In this document: positions 3,001 to 28,704 of the stretch, piece by piece
How positions within the stretch are numbered: the first letter of the stretch is position 1
Layout of the letters: each line of letters starts with the position of its first letter
NCBI RefSeq assembly: GCF_023016155.1
Contig: NZ_JALKBG010000008.1
Coordinates: 374,501 to 438,500, forward strand
Direction: 5' to 3'
Origin: Aliiroseovarius sp. F20344
Lineage (GTDB): Bacteria > Pseudomonadota > Alphaproteobacteria > Rhodobacterales > Rhodobacteraceae
Length of the DNA stretch: 64,000 nt
Notes under the pieces: generated by a model
Seen by the model: only the letters and a program-made list of their open reading frames with translations
Databases searched by the model: none
Told to the model about the DNA's origin: nothing
Position numbers and translations under genes: made by a program

Positions 3001-6000
3001 TGCTGCACCAATTCGTCCAGAGACCGTGCCGCCATTGCCGCCCGCGCCACCGCTGGACCCGACCGAAAGGCTGCCGCCAGCCCCTTTATTGCCACCGCCC
3101 GCAATGATGTAAGAGCCGTTGCCGCCTCCGCCGCCGATTGATTGCAGTTGCACCGCGTCGGAGCCTTGGCCCTGCGTCTGCAAAGAGGTGCCGCCACCTG
3201 CAATCCCGGTTTGGGTCAGTGCGACGTTGCCACCTGTACCACCGATGCCGCCGCTGGCCCCGATGGTTAGGCTGGCCGAGGCCGCACCCGCGGCTCGCAA
3301 GGACAAGGTTCCGCCAGCCATTCCACCACCGCCGCCAATCGACTGTGCCAGAAGTGCCTGCGCACCCTCGCCCATTGTGGAAATGGTGCCCGAGTTGGTC
3401 ACGGTCACCGCGCCACCATTGCCGCCATTGCCACCGCTACCACCAAGCGCAAGGGTCAGCGCGTTGCCCGTGGTTGCTGAAAGGCTACCAGCCGATCCTG
3501 CCGTGCCGCCGCCGCCACCAATGGATTGCGCCATAAGCCCAGCCGAGCGGTCGCCCTGTGTAAACAGATCTCCGGTGTTGTTGACAGTAACGGTGCCGCC
3601 CCAGCCGCCGCTGCCCGCGTTGCCACCAAGGCTGATTGTTGCCGCGCGGCCAGAACTGACCGTTCCACCCAGCGTGAAGCCTCCATTGCCTCCGCCGCCG
3701 CCGATGGATTGGGCGCGCAGTGCTGCGCTGTCATCACCATAGGTCACGATCTGCGCCGATTGCGTTACGTTTACCGCGCCGCCAAAAGCGCCACCCGATG
3801 CGCTGCCACCCAACCGCAGCGATGCTGAATTGCCTCCGCCTGCCAGACCTGCCGACATGCCGCCATTACCACCGCCGCCGCCGATGGACTGCGCCAGCAA
3901 CCCGTCCGACTGCGCGCCGCGTGTTGTGATGGCGCCGGTGTTCGTCACCTCGACTGTGCCGCCTTGGACGGCACCTGCGCCGGATCCGCCGATGGTGACG
4001 CCCATGCTGGCAGATCTGGCCAGAGTGCCGCCGATGGTGAAGCCGCCATTACCGCCACCGCCACCGATGGATTGCGCGGCGACGCCGATTGAATTGTCAC
4101 CCTGTGTCTCGATGGTGGCCGCGTTGGTCACACGGACAGTGCCACCCGCGCCACCGGAACTGCCGCTCCCGCCTATGCCTACCGAGGCTGCTGCCGTTCT
4201 GCTGAACCCACCCGTGATTGCCATGCCGCCATTGCCGCCGCCACCGCCGATGGATTGCGCCAGAATACCGGCCGAGTGATCTCCGATCGTTTGTAGGCGG
4301 CCGTCGGCACTGACCTGCACCGCGCCAGCCGATCCACCAGACGCGCCGCGTCCTCCAAGGGTGAAGGCCCCGCCAGCTGTTGTGGACACGCCCGCCGAGG
4401 CCGACATGCCGCCATTACCGCCACCGCCACCAATTGATTGTGCAAGGATCGCACCCGAGAAGCGGCCCATGGTAAAGATGTCTTTGTAGCTCGTCAGAAC
4501 AACGTTGCTACCCGCTCCACCAGCACCACCAGAACCGCCGAGCGCGACATTGATCGCTGCTGTGCCCGCGTTTACCCCGCCCGAGACGGCAAAGCCGCCG
4601 TTTCCGCCGCCACCGCCGATCGACTGTGCCGACAGGCCCGTAGCGTGATCGCCAAGCGTGGTAACCGTGGCGCGGCTGGTCAATGAGACCGTATTACCAT
4701 TGCCACCCGAGCCGCCAAAGCCGCCCATTGCCATTCCGGCGGTAAACGCGCTGTTCGAGACATCTGCCCCGATTGCGAATCCGCCATTGCCGCCGCCGCC
4801 GCCGACGGATTGTGCCAGAACACCGACCGAGCCGTCTCCTTCGGTGCGTAGAGTTGTGTCAAAAGCCGTGGTCCCCAGCGAAACCGACACCGCGCCACCA
4901 ACCTGACCGTTGCCGCCCGATCCGCCCATCGCCAGTGTGGCCCGGTTGCCGCCGAAGCCTCCTGACAGGGCGAAGCCGCCATTGCCGCCGCCGCCACCAA
5001 CCGATTGCGCCACAAGCCCGTGTGACAGGTCCCCTTTGGTCAGAATGCTTTCGGTTACGCTTGCAGTGACATAACCGCCGTGCCCGCCGATGCTGGCAGA
5101 CCCCCCGAAGGCCATTGTGGCGCTTCCAGTGCCTGCATTCGCGCTGGAAGCCGTGAACCCGCCATTGCCACCACCGCCACCGATAGATTGGGCAAGGATG
5201 GCGGTCGAGTTGTCACCATGAGTTTCAATGTTCCTGTCCGGAATGGCAGAGTTCGCGACGTTGACGTCGACCCGGCCACCATGTCCGCCAATACCGCCAG
5301 CCCCGCCAAAGCTAAGCCCGACCGAGCCCGTCGCTGCAAAGCTGCCCGAGCTGGACATGCCGCCATTGCCGCCTCCGCCGCCGATGGACTGTGCGACCAG
5401 AGCGTTTGCGTTGTCGCCAAAGGTCCACGCCCCGTTCGAGGCGCGCAGGTCAACACGTGCACCATTGCCGCCGATGCCGCCGGAACCACCGATGCTGGCT
5501 GTCGCGCTGGCGGTGAAGCTGGCCGAGGCGCTGATCGCCATGCCGCCGTCTCCACCACCACCGCCAATGGATTGTGCTAGAACGCCCGTCGCGCCGTCGC
5601 CTTGCGTCAGAACCAATCCGGCCGCATTGGCCCAGACGTTTCCGCCATGCCCGCCACTTCCGCCCGAGCCGCCAATGGACAGGCTGCCTGATAGGGCTCC
5701 GGACAGCGCGCCCGCAACAGCCATGCCACCACGTCCACCACCGCCGCCGATGGATTGCGCCACAAGGCCCGACGACATATCGCCCGCCGTGACGATGGCG
5801 CCATTCGCAGTCACCGCAACACGCTGGGCGTAGCCGCCGCTGCCACCTGCACCGCCAAGAGCCACCGAAAGTGCCCCTTTGCCCGAGGCGCCTGCCGCAA
5901 GGGCCATTCCACCATTGCCGCCGCCGCCACCAAGCGACTGGGCCAAGATCCCTGTGGCATGGTCCCCTTGGGTGCCGATCCTGTCATATGTGGTGACTGT

Positions 6001-24835: not shown

Positions 24836-25489
24836 ATGGTATTTAATTCTCTTGGAGCAGGTGCATTTGAGCGGCTGCGTCAGCGTGGTCATAGCCGCGT
24901 CTTCAAGAAGAAGGATGTGGTGTTCCGGTTCGGTGATCCCGGGCTGACGTTGCTGATTGTAGAAGAGGGGACAGCCGAAGTCAGCGTGACAACAGCGCTT
25001 GGTCAGAAGTCCATTCTTGGTTTGGCCGCGCCGGGGGACGTTCTGGGCGACATTGCGTGTTTGGATGGCGGACCACGTAGCGCGGATGTAGTGGCGCTCG
25101 AAAAGCTGGAAACCATAGAAGTTCAGCGCGGCGACGTCTTGCAAATGTTCCGAGAAGACCCTGACAGTGCAATTCTGGTGATTGAAGCCCTGTGTCAAAA
25201 GGCCCGCAATGCGTCCGAGATGTTCGAAGTTCAAACGATGCAAAGCGGTCAGGCGCGTTTGGCGGCATGCCTTCTTAGGCTTCTGGCATCCACGGCGCGT
25301 GACAACCCGGAACAGAATTCGGTTAAGGCCAGTCAAAGCTGGTTGGGCGCCTATGCGGGGCTGACACGAGAGAACGTAAACAGGCAGCTTAAGGCATGGG
25401 CGCGAGAGGGAATTGCTCGGTTTGAGAAGGGTAATGTTGTGATCGAAGATCGGGCACGCCTTGAAGAGCTGTCGCAGGGTGAAGACTGA
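24836..25489 (+). CDS. Crp/Fnr family transcription regulator
   Basis: This 217-residue protein has an N-terminal cyclic-nucleotide-binding-type beta-barrel (FRFGDPGLTLLIVEEGTAEV, PGDVLGDIACLDGGPRSADV), a long dimerisation helix and a C-terminal winged HTH. No Fnr-type N-terminal cysteine cluster is present. The recognition helix reads LTRENVNRQLK, keeping the R-E-x3-R spacing that CRP uses to read TGTGA. A perfect TGTGA-N6-TCACA palindrome lies 80 bp past its stop. The ligand is unknown; the nearby class III cyclase makes cAMP plausible but this is inference. Confidence 0.88.
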   Translation: MVFNSLGAGAFERLRQRGHSRVFKKKDVVFRFGDPGLTLLIVEEGTAEVSVTTALGQKSILGLAAPGDVLGDIACLDGGPRSADVVALEKLETIEVQRGDVLQMFREDPDSAILVIEALCQKARNASEMFEVQTMQSGQARLAACLLRLLASTARDNPEQNSVKASQSWLGAYAGLTRENVNRQLKAWAREGIARFEKGNVVIEDRARLEELSQGED

Positions 25490-25568
25490 TAAATAGCTCA
25501 AATCATGAGCTTTATTGAAAATCACCCATAGGTAGAAAATAGTGAAAATGTGAAGTAATTTTCCTAAC

Positions 25569-25584
25569 TGTGATGTGCGTCACA
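25569..25584. promoter_or_regulatory. Perfect CRP-type palindrome TGTGA-N6-TCACA
   Basis: Both half-sites match the CRP consensus without a mismatch. The centre is at 25576.5. A TATTCA at 25606–25611 is placed so that a start near 25618 would put the site at -41.5, class II geometry. No protein gene follows on plus before the convergent cyclase gene, so the likely target is the structured RNA candidate described next. Confidence 0.55.
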
Positions 25585-25614
25585 TGTGGTGTGCATGCCG
25601 CGTGCTATTCAAAA

Positions 25615-25751
25615 GGGGAAGACGCTGAAAGCTTTTGGGGAAAGTTATTTTAGCACGCTTAGATACTAAAAGCTCGCTTTGGGTGGCGCTGTTTACGGCG
25701 TTTTGGAGTGAGAATTGTACCCGGTTTCCGGGACGCCTAAGTGTCTTCCCC
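25615..25751 (+). ncRNA. Candidate structured RNA behind the CRP-type site
   Basis: The ends pair perfectly: GGGGAAGAC (25615–25623) with GTCTTCCCC (25743–25751). Inside are AGCTTTT (25630–25636) with AAAAGCT (25668–25674), GGCGT (25697–25701) with ACGCC (25733–25737), and CCCGG-TTT-CCGGG (25720–25732). All helices nest in one fold. The segment fills most of the 326-bp non-coding interval 25490–25815 and is AT-richer than neighbouring genes. Nothing in it resembles SRP RNA or tmRNA as I know them. A CCCC…GGGG pair downstream (25748–25769) could help termination. Expression is inference. Confidence 0.45.
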
Positions 25752-25815
25752 TGTCAGATGACGGACGGGGTTTGGTTGTGCCATTATTGGCTGCCGTGAG
25801 TGGTGAGGCGCTACG

Positions 25816-28704
25816 TCAGCTCTGGGAACTCAGGCCCGGAGGCGCCGACACACCAGTTTGAGTTTGTGATAACTCTGTCCGTATTTCGCGGATGGAGTGG
25901 TCCCACTCATACTCTCCCACTTCATCAGACAAAATTTTTGCTTGATCGAGAAGTGATTGTGACGTTTCCAGATCACCATTCGCCAAATAGGCTTTCGCCA
26001 AAGCCGCTTTGTAGAATGGGGCGTTCAAACCCGCGCCAATCATACTGGCCTGTTCGACCATCATTTCTAGCGCGGCTGGAGTTTCCGCGGTGTGGCCTTG
26101 ATAGATTTGCACGATTGTCAGCCAAAGCCGACCGTTCAGCGACCAGAACTGCGCCTGTTGTTCGTCCGCAACCTCGATGCCTGCTTGGATTTCACGTTCC
26201 GCGAGGTCCAGATGCCCACCTGCAAGCAGCGCTTGACCTCCGAAGATATGAATCCACGGAATTTGTGCCACGGCTCCGATGGCATTTAGGTGTTCGTGTG
26301 CCTTTGACATCGCCGCCAAAGCACCATCCAGATCACCCTTACGTGCAAGCACATGCGCGTCGGCGGATAGAACCGACGCAAGCGGGTCGGCGCCAAGTTC
26401 TAGGAACAAGCGGCCATGTTCTTCTGTTTTGTAAAGCGACTTGAGCATAGCACTACCAATGGCAGCCCGATCAAATTGACCCGAGTACAAAGCGTGGGCA
26501 GTTTCGTTCACCAGCCAGATGACCTTAAGCTCGTCATCTCCGTTTTCGGCCAAGGCCTTCATCATATCGGCGTATTCGCCGCTTTCGCGCACGCGCCCAT
26601 TGATTATGCGGTGGGCAAACAGGCCGTAAAGCGCGGTCATCCGTTGCCGGTCGGTGCCCTCGGCATGACCAACCGCATCTTCCAAAAGCTGATAGCGTTC
26701 AAGAACTATGGGGTGCGCAAACCCCATGCGTTGCACTGTGGCGCTGGCCAGAAGGGACAGAACCGGAAGGTACTCCATACGTGTTACTTTTTCAGGGGCG
26801 GCCTGCGCCTCCATATCGGTCCGGGCGTGATCCAGATAAGCCATGGATTGATCAAAATTCACGGCCATCAGCATGTGAATCCCTGCATGCATACATGCCG
26901 CCGGAAGCTGTTCATGGTCCCGTGCCGCGATGCGGTGGTCTGCCATAAGGTGAGGGTAGGTCGCACAATAGGCCGGGTCCTGCACCTGCATGGCATCGGC
27001 GAATTGCTTGTGAAGGGTACGCCTGCGTTTGCCTGGTATCATTTCGTAGGCCGCATCCCGCAGGAGGATGTGATCGAATGACAGCCCATCAGCGCGGGGG
27101 TTGAAAATGCCGCGAATGGTTAGAACCCCAAGCTCATCTTCCAGGTTCTGGCGATCCGTTAACAGATGTGCCACGTGATCGGATCTGAACTCGCGCCCCA
27201 GTACGGATGCACATTGGATGACGTCGCGGAGTGCCCCGAACCCGTTGATGATCGCTTGGAACGTCGCTTCAATCGTCTGTGGAAGCTGCTGTGATGCGTC
27301 ACCAGACCCAAACTGTCGGGCGTGGGTGGCGAGGGCTGACAGGAACAGCGGGTTCCCCTCGGCTGCATCAATAATCTGACGGCGTTGGGTATCATCAAAT
27401 TCTGGATAGGACGAAAGCGCAGTTTGCGCCGCTTCGTCGCTCAGTGGTGACAAGTGGACCGCTTCGATGGAGGTAGTCTCCAGCAAGGCATCGATCTTGT
27501 CCGAAGGGCGACTTGTTACCACGATACGCTGAGCGCCACCTTCTGCTTTCAAAAGCGCTTCAAGCACCGTGATCGTGTCATCATCGAACCAGTGCAAGTC
27601 ATCAAAGGTGATTGCGGCGCGACGTGTGATTGCAAGACCTGCAAGTGCACGGGTCGCCAGCATAACCCGACGAGATTGCAACTGTTCTGGGGTTAGCAAA
27701 ACCGGTTGGGCCGCTTGTAGGCCAAGAAGACCCGCCATCACCATCTGGTCCTGGTCTGACAGGGTGATCCCGATGGATTTTAGTTTCGCATTCAGATCGG
27801 ACAGGGCGGATTGGCCCTTTAGGCATAGCTCGTGGCGAAGGGTTTCGGTGATCGGGAATAGGGCTGATTGCTGAAGGTTTGCACGCGCATCAACTTTGAT
27901 TGCGTTTGCACCCGTCTGCGCCCGATCAAACGCATCCAGAAGAACTGATTTTCCGATGCCAGCAGGGCCAATCAGCGCATGCGCGCGGTTGTCGTCATCT
28001 TGTAGCAGAGCAAGCTCTTTATCGCGCTCCAGCAGCTCCGACTGCTTGGTGTGATCCTCTTCGAAATGGAAGCCGGTAACCTCGATCAAATCAACAGGTT
28101 CATCGATCCCCTTTAGCTTGCGGGTATCTTGTGAAGCCTCATCCAGACGGGCCAGCCGCGACAAGAAGGATTTCGTTTGCCCCGATATCACGACGCCGCC
28201 GGTTTTGGCCTGTTCCTGCAAACGGGCGGCTCTGTTCACATGCAGCCCGGTCAGTTGCGGGAACAAAGTGCCCTGCTGGCCGACGCGACACATGATTTGC
28301 CCGGTATCAATCCCAACGCGTACTTGCTGTCCGTTCACGCGTTCGGGCATGGTTTTCGCGATGGACAGGCCAGAGGCGATTGCGGAAAGGGCTGAATCTT
28401 CTCCATCGTGATCCAGACCGAAGCACGACAACACACCATCGCCATAGCGCTGCAGTACACGCCCACGGTAGGTTTCAACGGTGTCATTTACCTGTTGGTG
28501 AAACGCGGCGATTGTGTCGTCATAGGTCTCAAGCTCGGTCGAGCTGGCAAAAGCGGTCGAGCCGACAAGGTCGATGAACTGAATGGTCAGAATCCGAAGT
28601 TCAGGATTGTCCGCATTCGCGATGACTTCAGCCCCGCAACTGCTGCAGAACCGGGCCCCTTCAACAAGTGGCTCTGCGCATGACAAACAGTTGGTGGCCT
28701 GCAT
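25816..28704 (-). CDS. Class III nucleotide cyclase fused to AAA-type ATPase and helical repeats
   Basis: This 962-residue protein has an N-terminal zinc ribbon (C6, C9, C20, C23) and a class III cyclase domain (about 36–210) with metal aspartates D45 and D89 and transition-state N157 and R161. A P-loop ATPase follows (GPAGIGKS at 246–253, later FDDLHWFDDD), then a long TPR-like helical region to the C-terminus. The position where many cyclases have Asp in the G-D-x-V-N motif is Leu here, so substrate choice is uncertain. The start at 28704 follows GAGG and lies 2 bp after the upstream stop, so the two genes are coupled. It probably links a signal to cAMP or cGMP. Confidence 0.88.
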   Translation of the reverse strand: MQATNCLSCAEPLVEGARFCSSCGAEVIANADNPELRILTIQFIDLVGSTAFASSTELETYDDTIAAFHQQVNDTVETYRGRVLQRYGDGVLSCFGLDHDGEDSALSAIASGLSIAKTMPERVNGQQVRVGIDTGQIMCRVGQQGTLFPQLTGLHVNRAARLQEQAKTGGVVISGQTKSFLSRLARLDEASQDTRKLKGIDEPVDLIEVTGFHFEEDHTKQSELLERDKELALLQDDDNRAHALIGPAGIGKSVLLDAFDRAQTGANAIKVDARANLQQSALFPITETLRHELCLKGQSALSDLNAKLKSIGITLSDQDQMVMAGLLGLQAAQPVLLTPEQLQSRRVMLATRALAGLAITRRAAITFDDLHWFDDDTITVLEALLKAEGGAQRIVVTSRPSDKIDALLETTSIEAVHLSPLSDEAAQTALSSYPEFDDTQRRQIIDAAEGNPLFLSALATHARQFGSGDASQQLPQTIEATFQAIINGFGALRDVIQCASVLGREFRSDHVAHLLTDRQNLEDELGVLTIRGIFNPRADGLSFDHILLRDAAYEMIPGKRRRTLHKQFADAMQVQDPAYCATYPHLMADHRIAARDHEQLPAACMHAGIHMLMAVNFDQSMAYLDHARTDMEAQAAPEKVTRMEYLPVLSLLASATVQRMGFAHPIVLERYQLLEDAVGHAEGTDRQRMTALYGLFAHRIINGRVRESGEYADMMKALAENGDDELKVIWLVNETAHALYSGQFDRAAIGSAMLKSLYKTEEHGRLFLELGADPLASVLSADAHVLARKGDLDGALAAMSKAHEHLNAIGAVAQIPWIHIFGGQALLAGGHLDLAEREIQAGIEVADEQQAQFWSLNGRLWLTIVQIYQGHTAETPAALEMMVEQASMIGAGLNAPFYKAALAKAYLANGDLETSQSLLDQAKILSDEVGEYEWDHSIREIRTELSQTQTGVSAPPGLSSQS

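Follow-up and report, generated by a model that had tools for sequence, protein, structure and literature searches.

The stretch of Aliiroseovarius sp. F20344 DNA analysed here, 64,000 nt long and hereafter called the window, carries a gene for a Crp/Fnr-type regulator and, converging on it, a gene for a class III cyclase. Between the two lie a CRP-type palindrome, a -10 element and a conserved interval that we predict to encode a structured noncoding RNA (Table 1). Comparison with other members of the genus rests on 15 genomes in which this RNA was recognised, eight of them in what we call clade A and seven in clade B.

Table 1. Coordinates of genes, promoter elements and predicted RNA helices at the crp-cyclase locus (positions in the window)
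Feature	Coordinates	Strand	Remarks
Crp/Fnr-type regulator, 217 aa	24836..25489	+	cNMP_binding and HTH_Crp_2 domains
CRP-type palindrome TGTGATGTGCGTCACA, TGTGA-N6-TCACA, 0 mismatches	25569..25584	+	centre 41.5 bp 5' of predicted start
-10 element TATTCA	25606..25611	+	TATYCA in clade A, TATACA in clade B
Structured noncoding RNA, predicted, ~232 nt	~25618..25849	+	from conservation edges, covariance model and covariation
P1, 5' strand	25618..25623	+	pairs with P1 3' strand, 25743..25748; two-sided changes at 3 of 6 pairs; 100% of cells paired
P2 hairpin	25624..25654	+	25624-25633 with 25643-25654; 10 pairs, 1 two-sided; 96.7% of cells paired
P3, 5' strand GCUUAG	25657..25662	+	pairs with CUAAGU, 25737..25742; clade A consensus fold
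P4	25674..25711	+	25674-25682 with 25703-25711; capped by P4b (25686-25690 with 25697-25701)
P5, short GC hairpin	25720..25732	+	CCCG/CGGG throughout clade A
P6 hairpin, loop AGAUGACG	25750..25770	+	6 pairs, 2 two-sided; 98.9% of cells paired
P7 hairpin	25774..25795	+	25774-25776 with 25793-25795, 25780-25783 with 25788-25791; 7 pairs, 1 two-sided; 98.3-100% of cells paired
Single-stranded linker GUGAGUGGUGA, 11 nt	25796..25806	+	present in 14 of 15 genomes
P8, 3' hairpin	25807..25846	+	25807-25811 with 25842-25846, 25820-25828 with 25833-25841; nearly invariant bulge; 14 pairs, 98.5-100% of cells paired; 3 two-sided pairs, all in the upper part, 0 at the base
Class III cyclase, 995 aa	25816..28803	-	Guanylate_cyc domain, AAA ATPase; convergent with the RNA
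FAD-dependent oxidoreductase / acetoacetate decarboxylase-like protein, 972 aa	28707..31625	-	overlaps cyclase start

A first-pass annotation of this DNA had described a regulator with the R-E-x3-R recognition spacing and a class III cyclase next door, and both descriptions hold. The recognition helix RENVNR is intact in all 15 Crp orthologues and in 8/8 aligned homologues of other genera, and the cyclase is identified by its Guanylate_cyc domain, its TPR and zinc-ribbon matches falling below cut-off. The regulator matches PF00027 (1.9e-19) and PF13545 (1.8e-14), and its cyclic-nucleotide cassette, GDIACL-DGGPRSA, occurs in all 15 orthologues with the RSA retained. At one cassette position, however, the 15 orthologues have D where the eight aligned homologues from other genera and E. 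coli CRP have E. Because this E to D change lies in the nucleotide-binding cassette, where it may alter ligand preference, the ligand of the regulator is uncertain. Against the CRP equivalog model (NCBIfam PRK11753) the protein scores 49.7 bits and does not reach the curated cut-off of 266. By this measure it is a member of the Crp/Fnr superfamily and not a CRP equivalog; its second-best PDB relative is Clr (7PZA).

The 972-aa protein is a probable fourth member of the crp-RNA-cyclase unit. It adjoins the cyclase in all five other genomes examined by tblastn (two of clade A, three of clade B) and, as read from frames, in G015 too. In the two clade A genomes compared it is 93-94% identical to the copy in the window, and the cyclase there is 79% identical.

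The first-pass annotation had also reported a mismatch-free TGTGA-N6-TCACA followed by TATTCA in class II spacing, and both elements were located as described. The sequence is an E. coli-type CRP site. Conservation of the palindrome, named at the outset as a check, extends to 15/15 RNA-bearing genomes, again with no mismatch and amid variable flanks. The distance from the start of the site to the -10 element is 37 nt in every one of them, which is class II spacing relative to a start that is itself predicted, and the spacer between the two elements is 56-64% identical within clades. In the window this is the sole match to TGTGA-N6-TCACA with zero or one mismatch, where 2.06 matches with at most one mismatch would be expected by chance; the palindrome is thus persuasive because it is conserved in all 15 genomes and not by its mere presence. 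Our sigma-70 pattern scan requires a -35 box and therefore missed the TATTCA element; its only sigma-70-like site lies at 25515-25543, away from TATTCA. A patch at 25524-25538, upstream of the palindrome, overlaps this site and is 86% identical in clade A inside an otherwise poorly conserved spacer; a further promoter or a regulatory site might lie in the 25515-25543 region.

Perfect sites were surveyed throughout the genome, and imperfect ones in the window only. Five perfect palindromes were found, and the copy at the RNA locus is the only one between genes. The other four fall inside frames, namely a 191-aa frame that we take for ctaG and those of a GGDEF protein, a glutamate-synthase/CDGSH protein and a phosphatidylcholine-synthase-like protein that scores below that family's cut-off. 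The small regulon envisaged by the first-pass annotation gains some support from this single intergenic copy, but a total of five is near the roughly three per genome expected by chance for ten fixed bases.

Extent, fold and covariation of the conserved interval

Within clades, identity is low 5' of the palindrome, high on it and low again in the promoter spacer. From about 45 bases past the site start to ~25850 it then runs at 0.82-1.00 per 15 bases in clade A and 0.73-1.00 in clade B, before dropping at ~25850 to 0.52 and 0.51, respectively; the cyclase sequence beyond lies at 0.67-0.89 and 0.51-0.84. Because within-clade identity stays high to ~25850, the conserved RNA passes 25751 and continues to ~25849 across the 3' end of the cyclase frame, of which it covers the last 34 nt in the window. 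The length of about 137 nt first proposed for the structured RNA therefore falls short of its conserved extent of ~232 nt, although the corresponding 138-nt piece (25615-25752) does fold well, at -56.3 kcal/mol against -40.9 +/- 3.95 for shuffled sequences (z -3.9, 0/200 as stable).

Within clades A and B, respectively, the RNA is 93.6% and 89.6% identical; the final 300 nt of crp reach 77.6% and 76.6%, the 300 nt of the cyclase gene closest to the RNA 77.7% and 68.5%, and the spacer 5' of the palindrome 57.8% and 49.5%. Between clades the values are 62.1% for the RNA, 61.5% for crp, 49.7% for the cyclase and 22.3% for the spacer 5' of the site, so that the RNA has diverged between clades as much as crp has, and largely through paired changes. 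A terminator scan of the window gave no intrinsic terminator or U tail at the 3' end of the RNA, and no long T-run follows P8. The one terminator-like site, with 0.6 expected by chance, lies inside the RNA at 25749-25770. Since there is no strong intrinsic terminator, the predicted 3' end is taken from conservation.

RNAalifold, applied to the 15-row alignment, returned 59 pairs, 14 of them with two-sided changes; one doubtful two-pair helix, both pairs of which were two-sided, was removed, leaving 57 pairs to be scored. Across clades, 98.9% of the cells of this fold are paired. The compensatory changes among homologues that had been proposed as a check are present, at 12 of the 57 pairs and in 60 cells, although most of this covariation separates the two clades, and the independent events are fewer than the cells; clade A taken by itself has two-sided changes at 0 of 46 pairs. 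Shuffled alignments had 8.3 two-sided pairs on average and reached 12 in 0/500 cases, and the covariation score of 0.270 (shuffled 0.171 +/- 0.008) was likewise reached by 0/500, although related sequences can beat such shuffles even without structure. With the 3' sides slid, the score was at most 0.096. The count of further pair types was not above that of the shuffles, 484/500 of which were at least as high.

The + strand is favoured by G-U usage, since 845 of 854 cells pair when the alignment is read as + RNA and 680 of 854 when it is read as - RNA. Fold energies are of little help for the full 232 nt, which comes out at -86.0 kcal/mol on the + strand (z -1.45, 15/200 shuffles as good) and -63.3 kcal/mol on the - strand (z -1.56, 14/200 as good); the RNA of genome G009 folds with a z of -2.41 (1/200 as good). 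Taken on the alignment, the interval is very probably a structured RNA whose shape has been preserved by matched base changes.

Individual helices differ in how they are maintained. The 9-bp terminal stem of the first-pass annotation, GGGGAAGAC (25615-25623) with GTCTTCCCC (25743-25751), can pair, but only the 6 bp of P1 are conserved: GGG at 25615-25617 precedes the predicted start and differs among relatives, and CC at 25750-25751 belongs to P6 in the consensus. The further nested helices that this stem was said to enclose are seen in the fold. P3, left out of the 57 counted pairs, reads CUUAG/CUGGG in clade B through one-sided changes, with G015 as an exception in a by-eye reading of the alignment, and it may compete with a local hairpin. 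P4 and P4b together comprise 14 pairs with 100% of cells paired; two P4b pairs and no P4 pair have two-sided changes. In clade B the position of P5 seems to be taken by a longer hairpin, which MAFFT misaligned and which was not counted. The linker has a one-base deletion in G017 and is followed by an extra A in clade B. The P6-loop word UGACG is complementary to CGUCA at 25814-25818 in the P8 bulge, and the two may form a pseudoknot; both five-base words are invariant.

P8 overlaps the stop codon of the cyclase. In 6/15 genomes (G005, G018, G016, G011, G009 and G015) the frame ending in P8 is cut short by a stop among its final 33 codons, and the residues encoded at P8 in several of the clade B genomes do not resemble the cyclase end, yet P8 is kept. 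To judge from these frames, only some of the species appear to have a cyclase whose C-terminus extends into the RNA gene.

Distribution of the unit within and beyond the genus

The RNA is found between the Crp/Fnr gene and the cyclase gene in 15 of 21 Aliiroseovarius genomes, and Crp and the cyclase (E <= 1e-60) are present in the same 15. All three are absent from the remaining six at the thresholds used, the RNA by a whole-genome search with the covariance model R1, and the full-length model R2 gave no match on a stretch of two of these RNA-less genomes (L077 and L078). A DNA search had found the interval in eight of the 21, from which R1 was built. R1 then recovered the seven clade B genomes weakly (E 1.7e-4 to 0.03), each match closely following the orthologous Crp gene on the same strand; because these matches are weak, the identity of the clade B members rests on position and alignment. 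R2 scores the 15 members at 217-269 bits, these being its own training sequences. A second R1 match in G012, at E 0.3, was taken as chance.

In 8/8 clade A genomes the unit adjoins nqrF, and in the three clade B loci whose frames we read the genes beside it look to us like an ABC transporter. Kept together in two different genomic places, crp, RNA and cyclase behave as a block. Genomes G001 (L077) and G019 keep nqrF at 91-92% identity without crp, RNA or cyclase, an indication that the unit has been gained or lost at the nqrF place; in G001, the frame after nqrF looks methyltransferase-like, in our reading.

Beyond the genus, R1 was run against 295 genomes that represent each genus of the family once, and only our own genome gave a match at E <= 0.001. 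R2 had matches at E 0.03-0.87 (11.7-16.4 bits) in 13 of the 294 others, in a search with strict filters that scored few candidates per genome and may miss weak relatives. These 13 were taken as chance, seven being fragments of the model and six spanning it with only 70-188 nt. A motif scan of public genome contigs returned 18 stretches, ten of which contain the RNA by the model (nine from Aliiroseovarius, one from an Alphaproteobacteria MAG); the other eight and a single viral contig had no convincing RNA match, the best being 13.2 bits in the viral contig. Searches of plasmid and phage DNA gave no match.

The regulator reaches further. Crp homologues of 39-44% identity occur in 8/294 genomes outside the genus, and in four of the eight genera inspected (G321, G139, G131 and G256, the last weakly at E 3e-4) the homologue converges on a cyclase; no copy of the RNA was detectable in these four loci. 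Of 44 non-own genomes with a Crp match, 29 had their loci checked within 1.5 kb. In 5/10 loci inspected in other genera, a perfect palindrome stands ~45-140 nt 5' of the homologue's own start. This links the Crp group to the TGTGA-N6-TCACA site as well as to cyclases. The distribution suggests that Aliiroseovarius either gained the RNA or is the only genus to have kept it.

One of these loci deserves separate mention. In G321 (L142, ~5170-5870), a Crp homologue (41%), a perfect palindrome, a foldable spacer (z -2.44) and a convergent cyclase follow in the same order. As a homologue of the RNA this spacer was rejected, its best model match being a 23-nt hairpin of 5.6 bits, and the 10-mer CCGTGAGTGG that it shares with the RNA was rejected as evidence of homology, an equally long word appearing in 113/500 shuffles. 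The spacer may hold an RNA of independent origin at the equivalent position.

Known RNAs, rival explanations and a proposed mechanism

At gathering score, Rfam 15 matches only two tRNAs in the window and offers no family for the RNA. At E <= 10 it gives three matches in 25480-25900, all on the - strand and well short of gathering score, the best at 21 of 55 bits, and the G009 RNA has one match, at 12 of 94.9 bits. We regard the RNA as a strong candidate for a new family of structured RNAs. Among the CRP-activated sRNAs of enteric bacteria, CyaR (RyeE), a short, Hfq-bound RNA with an intrinsic terminator, is comparable in that a complex of Crp and cyclic nucleotide is presumed to switch on a noncoding RNA; the Aliiroseovarius RNA, in contrast, is predicted to be ~232 nt long and multi-domain, has no terminator of that kind and is flanked by crp and a cyclase gene.

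Crp-dependent sRNAs are known in Yersinia (PMC4376681), and in Sinorhizobium meliloti, where Clr is likewise an alphaproteobacterial Crp-like receptor accompanied by many cyclases, the sRNA gene SMelC181 loses promoter activity without clr (PMC10127613). Clr thus has at least one dependent sRNA promoter, and is described with the core site GTNNCNNNNGNNAC and 417 intergenic ChIP peaks (PMC10127613), unlike the Aliiroseovarius system with its TGTGA-N6-TCACA site and one perfect intergenic copy. Order-restricted candidates for structured noncoding RNAs in Rhodobacterales have also come from comparative genomics, as with HRC-8-4, which differs in lying mainly between cco operons (PMC8632094). Neither cyclase nor Crp is mentioned in the main text of that paper, and a keyword search of one open-access library gave nothing on an RNA at the crp/cyclase position.

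Overall, we think it likely that the interval is a Crp-controlled, free-standing structured RNA. A Crp-type regulator, most likely the adjoining one, would be charged with cyclic nucleotide made by the class III cyclase next door, a choice of activator and ligand that follows from what is generally known of Crp proteins and from the neighbourhood. Charged Crp would then bind TGTGATGTGCGTCACA at -41.5 and activate a class II promoter with a TATTCA -10 box and no recognisable -35. The resulting + strand transcript of ~232 nt would fold into a P1-closed domain with P2-P5 inside, followed by P6, P7 and P8 with the conserved linker, and would act in trans through this fold as a dedicated output or feedback of the crp-RNA-cyclase unit. 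Of this chain, sequence comparison itself supports the Crp-type class II promoter and the folded + strand RNA, with its helices, approximate extent and co-inheritance.

Other explanations share parts of this evidence. The same promoter and RNA could serve a trans base-pairing sRNA of the CyaR or Spot 42 type, reaching distant mRNAs through its loops, and this we regard as somewhat unlikely. Crp-dependent sRNAs are indeed known (PMC4376681; PMC10127613), and conserved unpaired stretches exist, but the RNA has no U-rich 3' end or strong terminator, and the 11-nt linker has no perfect complement in its own genome except at the RNA locus (TCACCACTCAC does occur outside the RNA locus in other genomes). 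Duplex tests of five RNA segments against eight gene starts of the window stayed at chance level, 1/40 having p<0.03 (p 0.02), and none of five tests against one clade B crp start was significant. It is because there is neither a U tail nor a linker complement elsewhere, and because the duplex tests are at chance, that trans action through the fold is favoured, all of this being negative and indirect evidence.

Alternatively, the Crp-driven transcript might enter the cyclase gene as a cis-antisense RNA and damp it by duplex formation or collision, giving negative feedback in which the folds are secondary. Convergence of the genes, the coverage of the cyclase frame end and the co-inheritance of Crp, RNA and cyclase would all suit such an arrangement, which nevertheless strikes us as improbable, since it needs no covarying folds and the helices are kept by compensatory changes; moreover, the coding overlap is given up in those genomes with an earlier stop or unlike residues, while P8 is retained. 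We consider it much less likely that the conserved sequence works as DNA or as part of an mRNA, such as a 3' UTR fold of the cyclase transcript or a shared terminator. Such an element would sit between convergent genes, where hairpins are common, and the reverse strand does fold slightly better than its shuffles, but both cell pairing and fold energy are better on the + strand, and a terminator needs neither a conserved palindrome and -10 box nor 232 nt, nor is there a long T-run past P8. We give almost no credence to a short protein-coding gene. A CRP site and a -10 box suit an mRNA equally well, and single + frames are open for up to ~57 codons in clade A; each + frame, however, has at least one stop in each of the 15 genomes, at positions that differ between clades, so that no protein frame is common to the relatives, as the first-pass annotation had maintained. 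Indels are not multiples of three, and clade A has long stretches identical at every base, with no codon pattern.

Returning to the Crp-controlled, free-standing RNA, the step we tentatively prefer, short of calling it probable, is that it acts by binding a protein, because strong conservation within clades extends over both paired and unpaired positions, and because the linker lacks a perfect complement elsewhere in its own genome. Its target is a guess. For example, the folded RNA could bind the cyclase (or Crp) and so close the loop, as an allosteric partner of a nucleotide cyclase; this conjecture, which we put forward as a doubtful one, is drawn from the all-or-none occurrence of Crp, RNA and cyclase in 21 genomes and their staying together in two places.

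Regardless of the specific mode of action, the likely regulator and the second-messenger enzyme flank the RNA, and a whole circuit would thus be contained in one small piece of DNA. The best-known Crp-controlled RNAs are short base-pairing sRNAs of enteric bacteria. If the proposal is true, a large folded RNA inherited with Crp and a cyclase would widen the range of cyclic-nucleotide control in marine bacteria, and it raises the question of whether an RNA can regulate a cyclase.
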